From: Onchidella celtica
Lineage: Eukaryota; Mollusca; Gastropoda; Systellommatophora; Onchidiidae
DNA: 64,000 nucleotides
Direction: 5' to 3'
Assembly: GCA_963931925.1 (NCBI GenBank)
Contig: OZ007575.1
Location: 33,970,850-34,034,849 of the forward strand
Position numbers and translations under genes: made by a program. This document shows positions 9,779 to 52,464 of this stretch, one piece after another. The notes below the pieces were generated by a model that was not told where the DNA came from, did not search any database, and was given only the letters and a program-made list of their open reading frames with translations. Position 1 is the first letter of the stretch. Every line of letters starts with the position of its first letter.

Positions 9779-23301
<13,523 letters not shown>

Positions 23302-32930: not shown

Positions 32931-33314
32931 CTAGGAACTGTCACTATTATGACGTATTCTACGACCTACATGGACACTTCCCGGGGGTATTTTACAAATG
33001 CAAGCACCACAACAAGTACCATCCCAACAGCCTTCCTCAACACAGCAAAGTAGATTCCGATACCATGGTATGCACAGAGAACAAGGAAAGACCAAGCAAA
33101 ATGCATACCACATGCAGCAGAGTGTGCACATTTTGATGAAACCTTTATCCCAGGGATAATTCCAGTCATCTTCATCACCACAGCAACATCGCCGCTTCAT
33201 TCTCCTCCGCGATGAACACTTTACATCTAACTCTTCATGAGGTACACTTTCTCTTGATTGTGATCCAGTAGACCGTTGGTTATTAGGTTGAAATGTTACT
33301 GGATGAGCTGCCAT
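32931..33314 (-). CDS. Small cysteine-rich protein, function unknown (127 aa)
   Basis: I do not recognise this protein. Seen: ATG at 33314, stop at 32931, 127 codons. Residues 1-31 are polar and Ser/Gln-rich; a basic RRRMKRRCCCG patch lies at about 37-46; DDWNYPWDKGF lies at about 49-59; residues 59-90 are hydrophobic and Cys-rich (MCTLCCMWYAFCLVFPC); then CCVEEGCWDGTCCGACICK and a basic/Ser tail ending RIRHNSDSS. It has 17 Cys in all, clustered in CC pairs. No signal peptide is obvious. The hydrophobic Cys-rich core could be membrane-associated and palmitoylated, or a disulfide or metal-binding fold. A possible 5' UTR splice acceptor (ttactaacag) lies about 50 nt upstream of the ATG. The opposite-strand frame (32816-33136) is treated as its shadow. 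The gene faces away from the VPS4-like gene. Confidence 0.68.
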   Translation of the reverse strand: MAAHPVTFQPNNQRSTGSQSRESVPHEELDVKCSSRRRMKRRCCCGDEDDWNYPWDKGFIKMCTLCCMWYAFCLVFPCSLCIPWYRNLLCCVEEGCWDGTCCGACICKIPPGSVHVGRRIRHNSDSS

Positions 33315-35640
33315 TTTATCATTTCAGTCTGTCCACCACTGCTCTTCTTTTCTTCTCGATGCTGTTAGTAAGTCAGTAGAACACAGCTGTGACTTCTTTT
33401 TCTTCAGAGAAACATATCAGCTCACAATGTCTAGCAATGCCAGTTCCTAATTGGCCTTCAACCAGACAAAAAGAAAGAAACAAATTTCATTAAGTATCAA
33501 CGAACTGACAAAATAAATTCGAGAGCCTATATAGTTTCATTGGCCAACCTATTTCTTACATGATTAGAATTGTGGTGATTCACTTTTATTCCCAAACTGT
33601 GAAAGAAAAAAATGCAAACAAACTAACAATTAACAACAACAACAACAACAACAACAAAAAAGCCTGATTTGACTGCACATTAACTTGTTTAATTGCAGTT
33701 TAACTTGTGTAAAACAAAAAAAACCGACACTTTACAAACACCAGCTGATTAAATAATAACCATAATAAAATTTGAAATAAAAGAGTATAGTCTAGTATCA
33801 TGATGCGTGTGATCTATTTGGATATAGAGGTCTAGGCTAGTCTATATCAAACTTGTCAGACCTAATATAAAAATATTTCAACAAGCCATAAACTTGTATC
33901 TTAATTTGGCTCAGAAATACTTATTTCTATCAGATAAAATTTCCGTACTTCATGTGTCTTCTGAGAATGTTCCTTTTAATTCGATTCCATGCATTCGAAT
34001 TTGGAACACCCAGCGGAGTTAAATATATCAGACGCTGCATGGTTTCTAGATCTAGATCTACTAAATCTAGATCTAGATCTAGATGTAGTTTCAAAGATGA
34101 AATCAAAGCAGCTGGAAAACACTAGATTGCACTTGCTTGCAAACGTTCTGTATCGGTCACCAAAAGGAATAATACTAGAATCTAGATCTAGAATCTAGTA
34201 TTTTGATCGATCTCATAGCTCTTTCTTTTTTTTTTTTTTTTTAATAGATCTAGTCGAGATTCTGGATATTTCTAGAGATCTAGAGTCTTGATTGTGCTTG
34301 CACCAGTGACTACAATCTGTACAGCACTTTGATTACGTCTGATCTCTCTCAAATTCATTTCACCTTTTCAATTGTTTACTTGTCCAGCTCTGCCCAGCAT
34401 TTTTTTTTTTGTCTGGGCGTGATACCGACACGGAATGTCAGTCCACAAGAATACCCCCTCCTAGGTCAGTGAAAAGTAACCATAGTTCATTTAGTCTCGC
34501 ACACCTCTAAAGACACGTGATATAAACATAACAACACAACATAGAAAGTCGTGGGTAATCGAAAAATCTAAGACCTTTACTGTATGTATCAACAGTGCAT
34601 GAGAGTTCGGCATGAATCATAACAGTATACGCATGCAGTGAGGAAGTAAAGTTATTTTCAGTTGTTCTCCTGGAAAATTACCCCCCCCCCCCCACCTCCA
34701 TAAAATGAAGGTTTTTACAGATAGCGGTTTGTCAAACTATTTGATAAGGCTCAAAAGCACTAACCGATATGGATGATAGAAACACGCAGATTGCAGAAAA
34801 GTTTGGCTCTCTTCCTTCGTACTCATAGTCATAGTAAACTACTAAACTTCTATTTTAGGATTCCAAACATATTCTCACATGACCATGAACCGATGAAGTT
34901 TTAATACTGCCAAAAAAAAAAATATAATGAGCAACAGAGTCACTGCGGCACGAGGCTTCAGACCCAGGTATGATCTTCATTGTAGTAGACATGCATTTTA
35001 GTTACGTGTAGTTCTACCAGAGAGTATAGACTAAATCAGACTAAATCTATACTCTCTGGTTCTACAGCCCTTTCTGACGGAAAGAGTTGGCAGGTGGGGA
35101 AAATTTGACAGTGTCACTTACAATATCAGGGTCTTTTTATCAAACTCTTCACCATGTTCTTATGTATATATATTTCAGGATCTGCCAGTGCTAGGCACCA
35201 GTGACTAATTAAAAAATATAGAATTTAATAATTTTCAAGGTTTTCGTACAGTTTACTATTTTGATAACTCAGATCATAACACAACCATTGACAATTATAG
35301 ATACTGAGGTGACTATTTTTAAAATAACATTTTTCTGGTTCATTTCAACCTCACCTCATGTCCTCTTTCAATTCTGTATAGTTTTTAATTGACTGTCCAA
35401 CAGGAGCGTTTAATCTGATGCACTTTTCCCTGATAGGAGCATCGTGCATACAATTACAGGGTAAAGTAATGCGCAGAAACTGTTTTTGAGAGGAGGGGGA
35501 GAGAAAGAGAAGGAGGGGACATGAAGAGGGTAGAGGGATGAATCAGGCTTATTCATGTCATGACACCACCCTCAGAGAGTGTATTTTTGAAATGTGAATA
35601 AGATGCCATACTCAGCCACAATTTTATTTCCTTTCAACAG
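33315..35640. promoter_or_regulatory. Intergenic region between divergent genes; likely shared promoter region
   Basis: The flanking genes point away from each other. A plausible noncoding first exon of the VPS4-like gene ends at 34967 (GACCCAG|gtatga) and would splice to 35641 (ctttcaacag|A). The region also holds (TCTAGA)n-type clusters at 34044-34085 and 34181-34200, a C run at 34681, an AAC run at 33638-33657 and a hairpin at 35018-35059. Confidence 0.35.
34044..34200. repeat. AGATCTAG-type palindromic hexamer clusters
   Basis: Runs of AGATCTAGATCTAGATC at 34046-34085 and AGAATCTAGATCTAGAATCT near 34178-34198. The same motif recurs at 47310-47545. Confidence 0.85.
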
Positions 35641-35742
35641 ATTCAAGTACCAACCAGTCGGTGTCACTCATTGGTACAGCACTTTCTTACCGCTGAAGGC
35701 TTTTCTTAAAAGAGTAGAACTCTGCACAAATCACAAACTATT

Positions 35743-36659
35743 ATGGCTGAAGGGGGAAATTCTAGTGAGTTGACTCCAGAAAAAGACCTGAATTTACCAG
35801 GTGCTGAATTATTTCATGAATGCTCTGACAACGAACACAATTTGCACATCATGATATCAGGTCTCAAAATGTGTGAAACCCCTCACATTAAAGATGTTAT
35901 TAAAAAGGTCAATCCATCAGTTTTTCATGCAGAATCATTGTTTTCTGAAGGGGAATATCGCAAAAGTCTGGAATCTTACACCAAGGTTCTCCATCTGCTA
36001 CTGAGTTGTAGGAAAACACTGGAAAATTCACAGGATAAGAAAATTCTTGAATCAACAGCTCATAAATTACTGTCCAGAGCTGAGGAGATTAAACTTTTAT
36101 GTCCTGTTGCTAAGCCTGAAGATGAATTGAAGTATTGTGACTCACTTGAAGCAGAAATGGCACGTGATTATCCTACAAGAAGTTTTAATAGTATCAGTGG
36201 GTTTGAAGACTTGAAAACCTTCCTGAAGGAACGTGTGATCCTTCCTTTGAAATTTCCTAAGCTGTTTAAACGGCGCCCAATGCAGGCAATTTTGCTGTAT
36301 GGATACCCTGGAACAGGTAAATCACTCTTCCTCGAGGCAGCGGCATATGAAGCAGGTGTTAAGTTGTTAGTCTTCAATCTATATTATCTGGGGCATAGGC
36401 TGTATGGAGGACCACAAAAAGCAGAATCTTGCATCAAGACTGTCTTCCAAATTGCTCATCAAAAGCAGCCTTGCATTTTGTGTCTGGAAGACTTGGATGT
36501 CTTGAGCAAGAATGATGAAGTTTTCAGGAGAGGGAAAGTAGAAACCATGATACAAACTGAATTTCTGACAAGGACTTATTCTGATTCTGTCATCCTTATT
36601 GGCACCACTCAGAGGCCATGGCTGTTGGATGCATCACTGAGGAGAAGATTTCTGCGCAG
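35743..36659 (+). CDS. VPS4-like exon 1: N-terminus, MIT-like region and most of the AAA core
   Basis: ATG at 35743 with an in-frame polar leader (MAEGGNSSELTPEKD) not shared with VPS4. Upstream is a splice acceptor at 35640, so the 5' UTR is probably spliced. It carries the MIT-like region, Walker A, pore loop, Walker B and sensor 1. The donor TGCGCAG|gtaacg leaves in phase 2 within the arginine-finger stretch. Confidence 0.88.
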
Positions 36660-39600
36660 GTAACGCTTGTGTTTGTTGACATTTGCATTCTTTTTTCATG
36701 ATTGAAAAGAAGATGTGTTTATGGCTTGGGGAGTGGGGAAGGGGGGGGGGGGGGGGTTGGGGGTGGAGGAAGCTCTTAAAAGTTGTATTTGTAAAGGCAC
36801 TGGGCAAAATCTCTGCTTAAAAAGAAACAACAACAGCAAGTGGTGAAGTTAAGAGTGGATCCTAGTGAATTTGATACATCGTCACTGCATGGCATAATGG
36901 CAGATATATATCTCATTTTTCATCGTTTTGTGGAAGGTGAATAATACTCCATGTCATGATAAGATACCTATATTTGTTGTTTAGATGAGTATTGCTAATG
37001 GCTGGGACTGGCACATCTATGGTTTGTGTACATGACAGTGCTGGGCTTGTCCAAAAGAAGAATGTGAAAGATCAGTGCAATTTTGGCTTCAGAGTCTGAC
37101 CAAGGCAGTTATGTTATCACAGTGACAGTATCACTATTTCTTTTATAGATATAGGTCAGCCACTCTGTCAAGAGCAGATTTAATTCATAAGAGTGAATTT
37201 TTGCGAGAGCAGTAAGTAATTTTTAGAAACGTAATTATTGTACGAGCCAGCATAACTTGGCCTTGAGCTGGTCTCGTAAACAATGTGTTTTGAACAGTTT
37301 TTTCCCTGATAGATAGACAGAAGGTGGGGAAGGATAGAGGGACAGCGTAGGTGTGCATGACTGAGCACTTGTTGTATCTCGTGTTTTGAACTAGGGGTAG
37401 TAAAGAGGGAAGGGGTGAGTAGGAATTAAATGTTATTGAGACGTCTGTTGACGTACAGAAAAACCGTGATCCAGAGTAAAAGCTCGGGGTTTTGAACATG
37501 TTAAGAATTTATTGCTATAAAATTTATATTATATTGTATTGAAGTAATTCGACCTTTGATGTCGACCCAAGGTCGTTGCGTAGGGCTGTTACTTAAAATA
37601 ACTCAGTTCGGCAGCTGAGCTAGAAGTGGTTGCACCAATCACAATCCAGGAATTAGACGGTAAGCTGCAGATGCAGTCCAGTATTTAAGGCCATACAGAA
37701 CTTAGTTCTGGGCCACATGTAGAAAATCCATTTACGAGGTGGACGGCGATAGTCCTCAGCCAGATGAGAGACATAGAGACGCAGTTGAGCAGTCCATTGT
37801 GAGGGGCCTGATTTAAAGCTCCAGAGCCTAAGCTACTTGGTTTGATATAAACCCACAGCCTTTACATCCAGCGCTCTCACTCCCAGTGAGGGCCGCATGG
37901 TGAGAGTCTATACTAATTTGTAATGATGAAAGTGAACCGTTCTACTTACTTTTGAAGACAGTTTCAGAGCTACCGCCAGACAACGCATGGTTGTACAAGC
38001 ATTCTCCATGGCGTGTCTAGAGGAAATGTCCACATCATAACATGTCTCATTGAATTAATAGAATTTAAACTGTTATATCCGTCGCCACGTGCGCGGATTC
38101 TATTTGCCATATAACTCATATGACCTGCAAGTAGTTAGATTGAATTCGTTAGTCTTTATAAAAGCTGTAGTTCCATTAGTTAGATTCAGTTGCCTTTGAA
38201 TTGATATATATATTTATAATTATATTTGTTACATTAATTCCTGTAATTAAACTGCCCTACAGTTCTGCTAAAATTGAAAGCAATTGATTTATTTAGTTTT
38301 TAGAGTGCAAGTATTTATTTTTGTGTGTTCGTCGATTGTGGGAGCGGACCTCGAAAGAGTGTCAGTCGAAATATCCCCATGTAACCCACATCGCGACACA
38401 CTCATTTTCAACTTCCTTGGATTCTGTGTATTAGGCCCAATGAGATTTTATCTTTGTCTCAATACTTAAATGTCATGATAATATTATTGTAGAAGACAGC
38501 AGAGCTAAACTTTGAACATCACTTAGAGCGCTCATGCTTGCTGGACAAAAAACATTACATGTCAGAAGACAATAGGGTATGGTTCATTACCAATTATAAG
38601 TTGTAGGTTAAGTCAAAGATTCTATAGGTGAGTTTTCCTATGACAAAGACAGCATCTATCCTCTATACACAGTACTTATCAAGCATAAATTTGTGTTTGG
38701 CCAGTAGGTATGTGACCTTACCATCCATCGAAAGTCGCAGAGACATGATCAGACAGTACCTGGACAATCACAGCCACAACATGAGTGGTGATGACATTCT
38801 AGAAGTCGCTCGTCAGACAGATGGTAAGTAAATTTGGAAAAAGGTAGGGTATTTAATGAGGAAAGAATCAAGATACCAAGGAAAAATTATTGAAAAGATC
38901 ACATGGTAAGCTGAAATACAATTATACAGATGTAATCCGGCCATCCAATCCAATCACAGTAATTTACCTGCATAAAGAGAAAAACTTGTTCAATGCCGAA
39001 GAAGAAAATTACACCTTCATTGCAATAGTTTACTATCTAATGTCTTTCCTTCCTATAGAAATGAATACTGATACTCAAATAGTTTGCAAAGGAATGATGT
39101 GATGAGTTGCAATATGACTTGAAGAAAACCACCAATATGAAAATGTAGACACTTTACTTTTCATGTGATGTGTGAAAGTAAAGCATGATTGAGTCACTGG
39201 AGAAAGTTAGTGAGATGGTGAATGAGGAATAACACAAGCAGAGGAGGCTCACAAGAGCAGTAGCTATCATCTAGCTATCATCACAAACAGGGTGATTTAT
39301 CAGCTCAGTTATCCAGCCAAGCTTTTGATATGTCTTTGGTGAAATTGATTTGAAGAGAAGAAATTGGTCACAATAGCCATGGAAATCTTATATTAGCTTT
39401 AGGAAACAGGTATCTCAAATAAAATATTTAAACATTAATCAATGACTGGTTGGCCAGGTGCCAGAGATTTTAACAAAGTGCTTAATCAGTATTTTGAGTG
39501 GTCAGTTGCGACTATCAGCATGAGGTGTAAAGAAGGCAGCTAACACAGCTTGTGCAGTACCCTTGTATCCTCTGCTCCATATTCTTTGATGAAGTGTTTG

Positions 39601-41375
39601 TCTGGGAATTTTCAGTTTTTATTGTTGTGTTATTAATTATCTTTTTGGGTAATGCCAATTTGTTGATAGAATAGGTAGACATTATGTGTATGTGGAAAAT
39701 GATGTACCTGTACCTGTGCATGACCTGAACTGAAGGAAAGAATGGCCGCTGTATGACATGGACACTTTTCTAAGTATGATTTTTGTGGCAATCCATTTCT
39801 TTGAAGTCATCTTTATGTGGATTACAAATTGCATCTAAAAATCAAAGAAGGCACCTTAACTCTTTCAGGATGTCAGTGTTAGGGGCTTCAGTCAAGTCTG
39901 GACATAATTAATTTTTTCTCACTTTGGGAAAAAACAGCATGGTTCAGAAAAACGCTTACAGAAAAAAAGTATTGATAGTGAAGTAAAATGTTACACATCA
40001 AATGAAAGACAATTGAATATAGAATACAATATATATTGGCGATATGTCCAAGTGCAATAAATCGGGGATACATCCCGAAAGAGTTAAAGAGAGAGAGAGA
40101 GAGAGAATTGTTTCATCCGAGAATTATGAAGTATTTTATACTGCTATATAAAGAAACAACAAAATGAAATAAGAGAAATTAGCTTTATGAAATTTTCACT
40201 TACTCAATGTCATTTTCCTTCTACCAACATGCATTATGATTACACATTTCATTTGTACTTCTTCCATAGGTTTTACAGGGGCAGATGTGCTTGTACTCAT
40301 GAAGGTTGCCAGCATGGAGATTGTGAGAAAGCTTTCCACTGCCCAATACTTCAAGAAAATATGGGTGCATGAAGAGAGGATCACTGACAGGAAAGCTGAG
40401 GTATTGCACCTAGGATATCTCTAATTCCATTTTTCAAGATGAGGAAGTACTGTGAAAGTTCAGACTTCATTCATGAAATGCTAATGTTTTCAGCTGAAAA
40501 TGGATTTTTCCCATACTTTTCCACCATACCTGGTATTTGAGGCCTACTTATTTAACTTTGTAATGTGTTTGTTCTGGGCAAACCTCTTATCCCAAAGACT
40601 GAAGCTAAGTGACCCATTTTATCATGTTTAGTAAATGAACACACTAATTCTGCAATTTACATCAGTAAACAGAAACAAAATTTCATAGAAATTAAACTGA
40701 TATATTATATCCAACCAGTCTGTATCAGAAAAACAAGAACAGACAGCCAGTGATGGGCATGATGCAGACTCCTCAAGCAGGGATAGGGATTCAACAAGCA
40801 CAGATGCTGGGTCACAAGCACTTGGTCATGTGAGCCTCCCTTTGTCGGGACAGAACGAAACAAGCCAAGAAGATGTAAAATCAGGAGATGCCAAGGATTG
40901 TACAGAAACATCCTCAGGGGAAGAACATCTTCACCACACTGCAAAAAACACAAACCCTCAGCAAAGTGAAAGTGCAGTAACAATAGAACAGGACGCTGTT
41001 GAAAAGGGAGACACTTGCAGTGCTGAAGATCTATGTGCAATGGCTAATGAAGCAAAAGACACAGAGGCTGATCAGGAAGAAACAGATAAAGTTCAGGCTG
41101 AGCATGGGGACTTGTACAATGACTCAAAACTAGCACAGCATTGTGGTAGTTCCAGCGAAGAGCTCACAATGGTGGAAAAATTCATTCCCTGTGAATCCAC
41201 TGAGAAAGGGGCTGTGAAAGCCACATTTCTGGACCTACCGGAAGAAAAACTCTATCTCCAGCCAGAGATTTCTAAAGAGGCAATGGTGACAGCCCTTAGT
41301 ACAATGAGAAGCAGTGTATCTGAAGAGGATGCAGAACATATGAGAGACTTCATCGATTGGTTTGACACACCATGA
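35743..41375 (+). CDS. Diverged VPS4-like MIT-AAA ATPase (606 aa, four coding exons)
   Basis: Gene-level entry: exons 35743-36659, 38708-38823, 40270-40400 and 40719-41375 join in frame. VPS4 is the AAA ATPase that disassembles ESCRT-III at endosomes, the midbody and other membranes. Seen: a MIT-like helical region at residues 50-120 (ESLFSEGEYRKSLESYTKVL), the VPS4-type linker (VILPLKFPKLF), Walker A GYPGTGKS (187-194), Walker B-like LCLEDLD (246-252), sensor-1 region LIGTTQRPW (285-293), arginine fingers LRRRF (299-303), GFTGADV (345-351) and a VPS4-like C-terminal helix ending FIDWFDTP. Odd points: the Walker B acids read E-D instead of D-E, the sensor-1 Asn is Gln, the pore-loop KWLG reads RLYG, and about 165 acidic Ser/Thr/Glu-rich residues precede the C-terminal block. 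Usual VPS4 length is about 440 aa. Probably a fast-evolving paralogue with altered or lost ATP hydrolysis; that is inference. Confidence 0.85.
36660..37238. other. Start of the large first coding intron, with a G-rich run
   Basis: Noncoding. A G-only run lies near 36740-36756, then AT-rich DNA up to the LTR-like fossil. Confidence 0.7.
37239..38400 (+). mobile_element. Solo-LTR-like fossil, copy 1 (in VPS4-like intron)
   Basis: Starts TGTACGAGCCAGC and ends ATCGCGACACA. It carries a CCAAT-like and TATA-like pair (ACCAATCAC... TATTTAAGG) near 37636-37690 as expected for an LTR promoter. The first half aligns with 44305-45656 on the other strand, and the last 35 bp resemble the end of the copy at 50313. 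No internal coding region is attached, so it is a broken, probably old, solo LTR of an LTR retrotransposon of unassigned family. Confidence 0.45.
38708..38823 (+). CDS. VPS4-like exon 2
   Basis: Encodes YVTLPSIESRRDMIRQYL through VARQTD, aligned to the VPS4 segment that follows the arginine fingers (IYIPLP... GRKTDG). The acceptor region reads ccagTAG|G, so two acceptors 3 nt apart are possible; the downstream one gives Arg-Tyr, the upstream one would add Ser. Donor GATG|gtaagt. Confidence 0.87.
40270..40400 (+). CDS. VPS4-like exon 3
   Basis: Acceptor cttccatag|GT. It encodes the sensor-2 type segment GFTGADVLVLMKVASMEIVR and then a helix ending ITDRKAE. The donor GCTGAG|gtattg is weaker than the others but gives a phase-0 join to an open exon. 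Confidence 0.82.
40719..41375 (+). CDS. VPS4-like exon 4: acidic insert and C-terminal helix
   Basis: Acceptor ccaaccag|TCT, phase 0, stop TGA at 41373-41375. About 165 residues of Ser/Thr/Glu/Asp/Gln-rich sequence without predicted structure are followed by FLDLPEEKLYLQPEISKEAM and a last helix ending FIDWFDTP. This matches the VPS4 C-terminus (WMDVPGDKL... KKFTEDFG). The conserved end confirms the VPS4 relationship across the insert. Confidence 0.87.
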   Translation, partial: SVSEKQEQTASDGHDADSSSRDRDSTSTDAGSQALGHVSLPLSGQNETSQEDVKSGDAKDCTETSSGEEHLHHTAKNTNPQQSESAVTIEQDAVEKGDTCSAEDLCAMANEAKDTEADQEETDKVQAEHGDLYNDSKLAQHCGSSSEELTMVEKFIPCESTEKGAVKATFLDLPEEKLYLQPEISKEAMVTALSTMRSSVSEEDAEHMRDFIDWFDTP

Positions 41376-42125: not shown

Positions 42126-42597
42126 TCTATACTATATATATTTGTGGACTTGAGATTTTTCGTTGCAAAAGGCTTCTGAACCGCTCAACACTCAGACTTC
42201 AAATTTTATATGGTGCATCAGAATGGATGTAAGAGTGCACACTTTTTAATACAAGGCTAAAATCGGTGTTGTTTTTTTTATTGGAAATTTATTGTTTCGC
42301 CATCATTTAGATCTATTTCGAGTCATGGTTCGCCATTTTAAGGTTTCGTTATCACTTCCTGCGATGTGTTCACTATCAAACACACTAACCAGTGCGCAAA
42401 TCATGCTGTTGTACGGGATGCGCAGGGTGTCAACTCACAAAGGCAGAGCAGTAAGACTTAAATATTTAAAACAAACAAACAAAAATAAAATAAACAAATA
42501 GGAACAGACTAGATGAAGCAGGTCCATATTAACCACCCAGAACTGAAACCAATATTCAAACCGATTTATCCCAGGCAGGGCTGGGGACCTCAGCTAG
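42126..42597 (+). mobile_element. Non-autonomous Helitron, copy 1
   Basis: Begins A|TCTATACTATATATAT and ends with hairpin CCCAG...CTGGG (42570-42585), 8 nt, then CTAG|T. TC start, subterminal hairpin, CTRR end and A/T flanks are the Helitron signature. The 3' 300 bp match the copy at 47722-48441 at high identity in inverted orientation; the 5' part is shorter by an internal deletion. No Rep/helicase coding sequence. Confidence 0.8.
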
Positions 42598-42648
42598 TTT
42601 TTTTTATATTTATACATGTATATATAAGGTTTAATATGTGTTTAATAT

Positions 42649-43020
42649 GGGAACTTGCTACTGGCAACCGACCCAGAGGTGGGCCACATCTGCGATTCAA
42701 AGACACTTGCAGGGTCACGATGAAAGCATTCAACATCGACCCCAATGAATGGGAGAACCTTGCGGGTGATCGAAGCAGATGGAGACAAAAATTGCGCAGT
42801 GGCACGCTCGCAATAGACTTCAAGGCAAAAGAAACATACCTGACAAAACGACAGAGGCGGAATGAAAACACTCGCCAAAGTGAACCCAAAAGACTGACCT
42901 GCAATCAGTGCCATCGCACTCTCGGGTCAAACATTGGTAGAATAAGCCACGAGAGACGCTGTCAGTCAAAGTGAAAGTGAATATTCTAGCTGCTTAGACC
43001 GTCTGTAAAGACGCTAAAGG
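42649..43020 (+). mobile_element. LINE 3' fragment: C-terminus of a reverse-transcriptase ORF with zinc-finger end
   Basis: The frame to the stop at 42974 reads LATGNRPRGGPHLRFKDTCR, then NIDPNEWENLAGDRSRWRQK, and ends CNQCHRTLGSNIGRISHERR plus C. Pattern recognition: many invertebrate LINE ORFs end with RPRGRP-LRFKD, an IDP-WE-LA-DR-WR block and a C-C-H-C type finger. Only this tail is present, directly after the Helitron end, followed by about 45 bp and a TA run. Confidence 0.72.
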
Positions 43021-46595: not shown

Positions 46596-46600
46596 GATTT

Positions 46601-46673
46601 CGAGCCTGCCAGGATTCGAACCTGGAATCTTCTGATCCGTAGTCAGACGCGTTATCCGTTGCGCCACAGGCCC
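46601..46673 (-). tRNA. tRNA-Arg-ACG: tRNA-Arg (anticodon ACG)
   Basis: The minus strand folds as a canonical 73-nt cloverleaf. Acceptor GGGCCTG pairs with CAGGCTC, with G as discriminator. The anticodon stem TCTGA/TCAGA holds loop CTACGGA, anticodon ACG, and the T arm is CCAGG-TTCGAAT-CCTGG. The A-box (TGGCGCAACGG) and B-box (GGTTCGAATCC) are intact. A run of 15 T follows within 10 nt, which is a strong Pol III terminator. No intron and no encoded CCA, as usual in eukaryotes. The sequence is nearly identical to metazoan tRNA-Arg-ACG, so it looks functional. Confidence 0.97.
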
Positions 46674-47309
46674 ATTCGACTACATTGCACAGGTGAATGA
46701 ATAGTATCAAGTTGATTTCTTCTGAACAAATTTAATTTCATACTCAGCAAGTAATTAATATGACTTCAGGGGAGGAATTCCTTACGAGATCCGCACTTTT
46801 TGATAAAAAACCCTATATATTTTTTCGGTAGGCCTACTTATTAATTTTGTTAGTTTATCCAATTGTCATTGGAAAAAAAGCAATGTTGGGGGCGTGAGGG
46901 TCTAGTCAGTTTGTATCAATGGGCGGTAGTCAGATTGACTACTCAGGCGAAAAGGGGCTGGGGTAGTTGTGTTAGTTTCTGGTCTTTGGCGCTTTGTCGG
47001 CAACAGTGCGGATCTCGTACGGAATTCCTTCCGACTTCAGATTTTACGATGTTTCCGATCTTTTCACACATATTGTCAACGTACCACTATTTTTCTTTTA
47101 TCGCGCTAATATCAAGAGCCCTATAAAGGTAGGAAACTGCTTATTTTCTAATCCATTTGGTTGTTTTTAAGTAACCTCCCCTGGAATCGTCTGCTCGCAA
47201 ACACACAGTTAAGTCATTCTGGGCTTGTGCAAACCTTGGATTTGGGTATCTTTCACCCACTGAAAAGGTAAATCTTACTCAGCGAATAGACCTATACATT
47301 AGGTCTACA
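46674..47309. other. tRNA 5' flank, no gene recognised
   Basis: Mixed AT-rich sequence without exon-like structure. Confidence 0.5.
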
Positions 47310-50559: not shown

Positions 50560-52464
50560 TTTGACAAAGTTGAAGTACAAAGAGAGAGTGGAAGAAAAGT
50601 TTTGTGCGAGTGGAGTAAAAGAGGCGTGGAAGGGACTGAAGGTGATGACAGGTCAGGGAAAGGTGGTGGAGAAAGAGGATGGCATGAATGAAGATGAAAG
50701 AAAGGATTTTGTTGAACGTTTGAATTCCTTCTATTGTAGATTTGATGTACGTGATTTCTCAACAAAGAAGAAGATGCTTGTAATGTTGTTGCATGTAAAC
50801 TTGATGATCATGTTGTTCCTATCATTGAAGTGGAAACTGTAGAGAAAACATTCAGCAGGGTAAATGCCAGCAAGGCCCAGGGCCCCGATGCCGTTAGTGG
50901 CCGGGTGCTCAAGTTATGTAGTCAAGAGTTAGCGCCAGTGTACTGCGACGTGTTCAATCGGTCTTTGCAGACACACACAGTGCCTAGAGGGTGGAAAGCT
51001 GCCACGATTTGTCCAGTGCCAAAAAAAGCCTGTCCCTCATGTCTTAATGACTATCGCCCCATCGCCTTAACATCTGTCGCGATGAAGTGCTCAGAGCGCA
51101 TTGTTCTCTCATTTCTTAAACAAGACACACAGCACGCAATAGACCCTAATCAGTTTGCATACAGGCAAAATAGAGGAGTAGAGGATGCAGTCATTTCCCT
51201 TATTCAGCACTCGCATTCTCACATAGAACAGGGTGGAGCCTTTGCAAGGATCCTCTACGTTGACCTTTCGTCAGCATTCAACACCGTTCAGACCCACTTG
51301 CTCATTTCTAAACTAGATGCCATGAACCTCAATCCCCATCTCACGCTGTGGGTGGCAGACTTTCTGTCTGACCGTACACAAACTGTTTGTGTCAAATCTT
51401 ATACTGGTCATCACCCCCCACCACCACACACACTCACTCCCTCATCAACACAAACCTCTGTGTCCTCTCCTTCCTCGTCTGTCGCCTCTTGCACATCCTC
51501 CACCAGGACAATCAACACCGGTACACCACAGGGAACAGTAGTCTCACCTTTTATTTTTACCCTTTACACCAACGACTGTCGCAGCGACAAAGATGAAGCC
51601 CGTCTTATCAAATTTTCAGATGACACAGCACTAGTAGACTTGTCAGACTCAGAGGTCAGATACCAAGAAAATGTTTCCGTTTTCGCCCAGTGGTGCGATG
51701 ACAACTTTTTAGAATTAAATGTAGGGAAAACAAAAGAAATGCTTATAGATTACAAGAGGAATAGGAAAGATGTGGCGGCCCTCCAGCTGAAGGGTCAAAC
51801 AGTAGAGAGAGTGGAAGAACACAGATATCTGGGCACAATCATAGACAATAAACCTAATTTCTCTAAAAATGCTCAAGTTGTCTACAAAAAATGTAAACAG
51901 AGAATGCACATCCTGTATCAGTTGAGATCATTGATGGTCCCAAGCAGAATTATGGAAATGTGCTACCATGCTTTTATCGAATCCGTCCTCACTTTTTCCT
52001 TTATATGCTGGTACAAAACTCTTAATGTAAAAAGCAAAAATCCACTGAACAGCATTGTGAACTCATGCAGCAAGATAGTCGGGAGAGAGCAGGTGCCTCT
52101 TGAACAGTTGTTCAACAAGAGAGCCCTTGGCAAGGCAACCAGTATTCATAAAGACCCATCCCACCCTCTGTCCTATCTTTTTGAACTTCTCCCTTCAAAC
52201 CGACGTTTTCGGTCAATTTCGACAAAAACACAAAGATTCCAAAAAACCTTCGTTCCCACCGCCGTCACCCTACTTAATCAAGCCAGCTCCAAAAATTCGA
52301 GATAGGTCTGCCTTGGTGAGAGAGATCGAGAGAGAGAGAGAGAGAGAGAGAGAATACACATGCATGTTTATTTGTTCTATCTTAAATATGTTACTTTTAT
52401 GCCTGACAATTTGTTGCACAAGTTCCTGTTTATGGGATAATAAAGATTTGTTGAACTTGAACTA
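50560..52464 (+). mobile_element. 5'-truncated LINE of the CR1/L2/Rex1 group
   Basis: Only the linker, reverse transcriptase, thumb and 3' tail are present; the endonuclease domain is missing, as expected from 5' truncation. The main frame (about 50765-52305) has NDYRPIALTSVAMKCSERIV, YVDLSSAFNTVQ (catalytic Asp), INTGTPQGTVVSP, FSDDTALVDL (catalytic Asp pair) and VGKTKEMLIDYKR, ending with stop TAG. The linker KEAWKGLKVMTG... LNSFYCRFD lies in another frame, so one frameshift near 50765 separates it. The 3' end has a GA repeat, TAATAAAGATTTG and TTGAACTTGAAC, a short tail repeat typical of this LINE group. A 37-residue Pro/Ser/Thr-rich in-frame segment (about 51400-51510) interrupts the palm domain, so the copy is probably inactive. 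Confidence 0.9.

Follow-up and report, generated by a model that had tools for sequence, protein, structure and literature searches.

What does a VPS4-like AAA ATPase do when its hydrolysis centre and its substrate-gripping pore loop are altered and its ATP-binding lysine and arginine fingers are kept? The question is raised by a locus in a stretch of 64,000 nucleotides (contig OZ007575.1, positions 33,970,850 to 34,034,849 of the forward strand), referred to as the window. A gene at 35743-41375 on the plus strand, with four coding exons and GT-AG at every intron border, encodes a protein of 606 amino acids, here called the VPS4-like protein. Its 1821-base reading frame contains no internal stop, frameshift or broken splice site, and the coordinates, protein length and exon count proposed in the initial annotation were reproduced. 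The best reading, judged from the residues of the protein and held with evenly divided confidence, is that of a hydrolysis-impaired, fast-evolving VPS4 paralogue that would modulate ESCRT-III turnover.

Comparison of the VPS4-like protein with 12 chains from the Protein Data Bank (PDB; VPS4, katanin, spastin, fidgetin-like and Cdc48-type) revealed GYPGTGKS in place of GPPGTGKS, RLYG in place of KWLG, LEDLD in place of IDEID and GTTQ in place of GATN, with RRRF unchanged. The motif assignments were identical in 4 MAFFT modes. These alignments confirmed what the initial annotation had reported, namely the swapped Walker B acids, the sensor-1 glutamine and the pore loop RLYG on the one hand, and the retained Walker A lysine and arginine-finger cluster on the other. 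The features concerned are as follows.

35743-36659 (+): coding exon 1, comprising the MIT-like region, the linker and the AAA large domain up to the arginine fingers
36301-36324 (+): Walker A GYPGTGKS, residues 187-194
36397-36408 (+): pore loop 1 RLYG, residues 219-222 (KWLG in VPS4), with 3 extra residues inserted directly after it
36484-36498 (+): Walker B LEDLD, LED being residues 248-250 (IDEVD in the canonical VPS4 of the same genome, referred to as host VPS4)
36601-36612 (+): sensor 1 GTTQ, residues 287-290 (GATN in VPS4)
36640-36648 (+): arginine-finger cluster RRR, residues 300-302, kept

At Walker A proline is changed to tyrosine, and lysine and serine are kept. The Walker B acids are E249-D250, the VPS4-typical D-E pair being absent, and glutamine (Q290) replaces the sensor-1 asparagine. 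Aspartic acid as the first Walker B acid and asparagine at sensor 1 were found in all the other rows (12/12), and host VPS4 is alike. The row of 6b5c (katanin-like 1) has Q at the Walker B glutamic acid, probably from a deposited mutant, and this column was excluded from the invariant columns considered below. The yeast Vps4 counterparts are Asp232 and Glu233 (Walker B) and Asn277 (sensor 1), and the available part of the source ties all three to ATP (PMC5520056). The equivalent of W206 in pore loop 1 is L220, a non-aromatic residue, with tyrosine next to it at position 221. Position 206 is W, F or Y in all classic-clade members compared in the accessible text of PMC5716660, and the glycine two places on is invariant; this glycine is retained in the VPS4-like protein, as is D252, two places past the swapped Walker B pair. 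YYLG (residues 214-217) was considered as an alternative pore loop and ruled out, since the 4 MAFFT modes place RLYG there. The alignment register is uncertain at pore loop 2 and at the helix following Walker B, and IQTEFL could equally match IKTEFL.

Relative to the codons of host VPS4, the Walker B changes amount to one base each, in adjacent codons, and those at sensor 1 (AAT to CAG) and at the pore tryptophan (TGG to CTG) to two bases each. Sequencing error was judged an unlikely source of the changes because multi-base codon changes sit in a reading frame that is open and diverges along its whole length.

The main rival explanation is an ATPase that is still active but retuned at its centre, in which the swapped acids would compensate for each other and the tyrosine of RLYG would grip one position further on, the enzyme serving another filament or working at another speed. 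This would agree with the retention of the Walker A lysine, the arginine-finger cluster, D252 and the pore-loop glycine, with an aromatic residue still lying within the pore loop, and with the preferential retention of invariant residues described below, which implies a working fold. It has to contend with the constancy of the first Walker B aspartic acid and the sensor-1 asparagine in every other row and in host VPS4, and with the statement, in the part of PMC5716660 at hand, that W206 is W, F or Y without exception among the structures examined there. On these residues we consider a retuned enzyme rather unlikely.

The closest solved structures to the VPS4-like protein are VPS4B chains (2e-49, PDB). 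Kinship with VPS4, as proposed in the initial annotation, was checked by maximum-likelihood trees against katanin, spastin and fidgetin, and the protein fell with VPS4 in each of them: at 97/100 with 13 rows, at 96/100 with 14 rows including host VPS4, and at 99/100 with 15 rows after an archaeal row (L001) was added, the animal VPS4s then being its nearest kin (95/98). Its terminal branch was very long, at 3.4 changes per column with 13 rows, 2.9 with 14 and 2.4 with 15, and its position beside host VPS4 in the 14-row tree was supported by 64/72 only. Membership of another AAA family (katanin, spastin, fidgetin or Cdc48) was weighed with the approximately unbiased (AU) test. With 14 rows, spastin (p 0.018) and fidgetin-like (p 0.021) were rejected as nearest kin; katanin (0.086) and Cdc48 (0.078) were not rejected, which is the point in favour of this alternative. 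With the archaeal row included katanin was rejected as well (0.032). The archaeal row raised the support for VPS4 and lowers the odds for another AAA family; the 15-row tree is nevertheless an imperfect guide because this archaeal Vps4-like row itself falls beside Cdc48 (89/90). The trees, the VPS4-type beta-domain motif, the Vps4_C domain and the introns at or near VPS4 introns together support, at the level of sequence, the conclusion that the VPS4-like protein is a VPS4 paralogue and not a katanin, spastin or fidgetin, and on the same grounds we give another AAA family a barely appreciable probability.

The archaeal row came from one contig scan, from which the best 80 of 572 confirmed loci were taken. 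Among these 80, L001, from Bathyarchaeota, was the only locus (1/80) with RRR[FL] after sensor 1; 78 of the remaining 79 showed GRFD/GRLD, as found in Cdc48 and FtsH, and L048 showed neither. The protein encoded at L001:2001-2720, which has an N-terminal stretch that looks helical and an RRRF motif of Vps4 type, is a candidate archaeal Vps4. A viral origin of the VPS4-like gene found no support, as scans of viral contigs gave 0 relatives with exon 1 as query and 1 weak locus with the VPS4 alignment as query.

The host genome (1.14 Gb, 43 contigs; Gb, gigabases) was searched for further AAA genes and for VPS4 itself. An AAA-domain search pointed to at least 21 places (20 of 141 candidates scored), and among 8 AAA loci retrieved one was the VPS4-like gene and one a VPS4 on contig C8. 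A canonical VPS4 is thus present in the same genome, a point by which the initial annotation had proposed to check its reading. It lies at C8:44224564-44246914 on the minus strand, where 11 exons were read and the start of the first exon was not found; it is identical to mouse VPS4B at 262/330 positions (79%), and its motifs are canonical (GPPGTGKS, KWLG, IDEVD and GATN). A genome search with the VPS4-like protein gave 6 matches, namely its own 4 exons, host VPS4 and one fidgetin-like place, and no second divergent VPS4 copy was found by this search. Identities of the VPS4-like protein were 111/320 aligned to mouse VPS4B and 129/397 (32%) to host VPS4.

Comparison of intron positions linked the two genes further. 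The remaining parts of the VPS4-like gene model are as follows.

35641-35742 (+): putative 5' untranslated segment of the first exon, as read from the sequence, preceded by a good-looking 3' splice site, tttcctttcaacag; an in-frame stop lies at 35707-35709, upstream of the ATG
38708-38823 (+): coding exon 2
40270-40400 (+): coding exon 3, with the FTGAD motif
40719-41375 (+): coding exon 4, with the acidic insert, beta-domain motif, C-terminal helix and stop

Three introns of host VPS4 are relevant here: one of phase 2 in the third R codon of AIRRR, another of phase 2 in the glycine codon of TEG/YSGAD, and one of phase 0 behind HFRR. Intron 1 of the VPS4-like gene lies 4 codons past the AIRRR intron of the host gene in the same phase 2; intron 2 lies in the same glycine codon as in the host gene, in phase 1 and 1 nucleotide off; intron 3 lies about 14 codons after YFKK, in phase 0 as in the host gene, and the acidic insert begins there. 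Random intron placement fits host VPS4 this closely in 1.2% of trials, with thresholds that were set after the fit had been seen. Coding introns number 3 in the VPS4-like gene and at least 10 in host VPS4, and the 7 other host introns that were read are absent from the VPS4-like gene. These positions support descent by copying from an animal VPS4 gene with introns, part of which the copy would have lost, at once or later; a half-spliced retrocopy and later intron loss are both possible. An intron-free retrocopy was rejected, as 3 coding introns are at or near VPS4 introns.

A paralogue of such divergence may be a decaying duplicate, long selected and now relaxed, with no present function. The length of the terminal branch (2.4 to 3.4 changes per column) fits decay, as does the loss of 27 of the 68 columns that are invariant in 9 spastin, katanin, fidgetin-like and VPS4 rows. 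The other 41/68 are kept, against 50/150 of the columns invariant in the 3 VPS4 rows only (odds ratio 3.0, p 3e-4), a comparison that is rough, the rows including near-copies. Neutral decay was simulated by substitution from the VPS4-like gene's own aligned codons with 400 runs per level. The frame stayed open in 77/400 runs at 0.05 changes per site, in 9/400 at 0.1 and in 2/400 at 0.2; at 0.3, 0.5, 0.7 and 1.0 changes per site it stayed open in 0/400 each, mean identity falling from 0.55 to 0.20. Because drifting frames close before identity reaches 32%, and because invariant residues are preferentially kept, the sequence indicates that the VPS4-like gene was long under selection in the past; relaxation within the last 5 or so changes per 100 sites is invisible to this simulation. 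Content of guanine plus cytosine by codon position is 0.52, 0.38 and 0.39 in the VPS4-like gene, similar to 0.53, 0.39 and 0.34 in host VPS4, and its value at position 1 is far above that of the introns (0.37). The ratio of nonsynonymous to synonymous substitution (dN/dS) against host VPS4 would be uninformative, as synonymous sites would be saturated at 32% identity. With the 1821-base frame and all splice sites intact, the argument of the initial annotation that an open four-exon frame speaks against a pseudogene is upheld for a long-dead one, in agreement with the simulations, and we regard decay of a once-selected duplicate as highly improbable.

Analysis of the flanking domains sustained most of the VPS4 layout described in the initial annotation. 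The AAA core, the arginine fingers, the beta-domain motif and the Vps4_C domain stand, and the MIT-like part is weak. Pfam matches to AAA (1.1e-18) and Vps4_C (3.9e-9) were over the cut-offs, and those to MIT (1.4e-5) and the AAA lid (2.1e-5) were under the curated ones. The local-alignment score of the MIT-like region against the host MIT domain was equalled by 61/2000 shuffles; that of the C-terminal stretch was reached by 0/2000. An N-terminal MIT domain is one criterion defining Vps4, according to the accessible portion of PMC10936438. The features outside the catalytic core are as follows.

35944-36093 (+): MIT-like helices, residues 68-117 (Pfam MIT, below cut-off)
40719-41159 (+): Ser/acid-rich insert in the beta-domain region, residues 389-535, probably disordered, as judged from composition
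41184-41357 (+): Vps4_C domain, residues 544-601

The beta-domain stretch FIPCESTEKGAVKATFLDLPEEKLYLQPEIS matches VPS4; the motif PC....GAV..TFLDLPEEKL occurs in the VPS4 rows, and those of katanin, spastin and fidgetin-like proteins lack it. The Vps4_C domain is not exclusive to VPS4, as the rows of these three other families can be aligned to it as well. The insert of about 147 amino acids, with 23% D+E and 11% ILVMFWY, is absent from the VPS4 rows. It starts just behind intron 3, near a host VPS4 intron, and may represent growth at an exon border. MIT-interacting motif (MIM)-like sequences were not matched in the VPS4-like protein with the 2 patterns tried.

Such an architecture raises the alternative of a non-ring adaptor, in which the MIT-like domain, the acidic insert and the beta domain would join ESCRT-III or VTA1 partners and the AAA core would be a folded platform. 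A precedent is human monomer-locked VPS4A, which binds CHMP4C and ANCHR and for which a regulatory monomer role is proposed in the available part of PMC11086821; the size of the acidic insert and the kept GAV motif point the same way. Against an adaptor stand two retained features that serve assembly and hydrolysis in trans, namely the cluster of arginine fingers and a Vps4_C helix that can still be aligned, and the weakness of the MIT match. We think this alternative improbable.

Under the preferred reading of an impaired paralogue, the VPS4-like protein would bind ATP through the kept Walker A lysine and serine, would offer arginine fingers to the neighbouring subunit through the kept RRR, and would reach ESCRT-III sites through the weakly matched MIT-like domain. 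VTA1 is possibly contacted through the beta domain, since the GAV motif, which serves VTA1 contact in the VPS4 beta domain, is kept. The residues that position magnesium and the water for attack are altered at Walker B (D-E to E-D) and at sensor 1 (N to Q), which predicts poor hydrolysis, and alteration of the substrate-gripping aromatic residue of the pore (W to L) predicts poor grip. In mixed rings with VPS4, or by slow assembly of its own, the protein would slow or time ESCRT-III disassembly and not drive it. A second VPS4 copy of this kind probably tunes the motor action rather than repeating it.

Several observations weigh against an impaired paralogue of this kind. The E-D pair still supplies two acids, so that hydrolysis is possible; katanin and Cdc48 were not rejected as nearest kin by the 14-row AU test; the MIT match is weak, and the part aligned to helix 1 of MIT contains a proline. 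The AAA core is identical to host VPS4 at 84/223 positions and the C-terminal part, which is no better kept, at 19/65. Among the 27 lost columns are the Walker B aspartic acid, the sensor-1 asparagine and residues of the pore loop; others are glycines, prolines and alanines with no direct catalytic role, and a general relaxation of the gene, with losses reaching beyond catalysis, is possible.

A more specific form of the preferred reading, which we put forward tentatively and with more doubt than trust, is a dedicated snail-lineage VPS4 pseudo-ATPase that would enter mixed VPS4 rings and bind ATP without turnover or substrate grip. If true, nature would have built in an equivalent of the dominant-negative E-to-Q VPS4, which would govern how fast ESCRT-III is taken apart in some tissue or stage. 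A second copy with ring and partner parts kept and hydrolysis and grip residues changed would show that a dedicated defective subunit can time ESCRT-III, and would test naturally which residues of VPS4 its assembly can do without.

Among known systems, VPS4 itself (VPS4A/VPS4B, yeast Vps4), the ESCRT-III disassembly ATPase, shares with the VPS4-like protein the domain order, Walker A lysine, arginine-finger cluster, beta-domain motif and Vps4_C helix. It differs in that the VPS4-like protein has E-D, a sensor-1 glutamine, RLYG, the 3-residue insert, a short MIT-AAA linker, the acidic insert and 3 introns. The D1 ring of Pex1/Pex6, although part of a functioning machine, likewise keeps the Walker A lysine and lacks Walker B and the aromatic pore loops, on which hydrolysis and grip depend, as described in the part of PMC9265785 available; unlike the VPS4-like protein, a single-AAA paralogue with its fingers kept, it is one ring of a two-ring protein and is also without arginine fingers. 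Most organisms encode a single VPS4, according to the text at hand of PMC11086821. Giardia has extra copies in one organism, GlVps4a-c, with differing locations; catalytic residues are not compared in the part of PMC12611102 available, and the terms Walker, sensor and catalytic are absent from its main text. A literature search with most subscription journals outside its coverage gave no comparable VPS4 paralogue among the matches listed and no paper on a Glu-to-Asp Walker B.

Other features of the window were recorded as follows.

13879-23301 (+): several open stretches resembling exons, presumably of a SoxD-type transcription factor; none of 4 stretches scanned has a Pfam match
32931-33323 (-): short open frame whose predicted product is very rich in Cys and has no Pfam match
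42513-42974 (+): open frame just downstream of the VPS4-like gene, with no Pfam match, which is similar in appearance to the 3' end of a non-long-terminal-repeat (non-LTR) element
46600-46674 (-): putative gene for tRNA-Arg (acg), predicted by ARAGORN
50755-52305 (+): one open frame of 516 amino acids encoding a non-LTR reverse transcriptase (RVT_1, 6.2e-30)

One contig of the host assembly (C43, 13,988 bases) is mitochondrial, and its cox1 reads with the invertebrate code (AGA as Ser, ATA as Met). The gene order is cox2, atp6(-), nad3(-), nad4, cox3(-), nad2, cox1, nad6, nad5, nad1 and cob, where the nad6 match (9e-4) is below the cut-off and nad4 and nad2 were distinguished by place and length. 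In the accessible text of PMC3198971, atp6, nad3 and cox3 are on the minus strand in 10 pulmonate mitochondrial genomes, and the order of protein genes is stable across euthyneurans. Because these three genes are on the minus strand as in pulmonates and the code is that of invertebrates, the host is most likely a euthyneuran gastropod.

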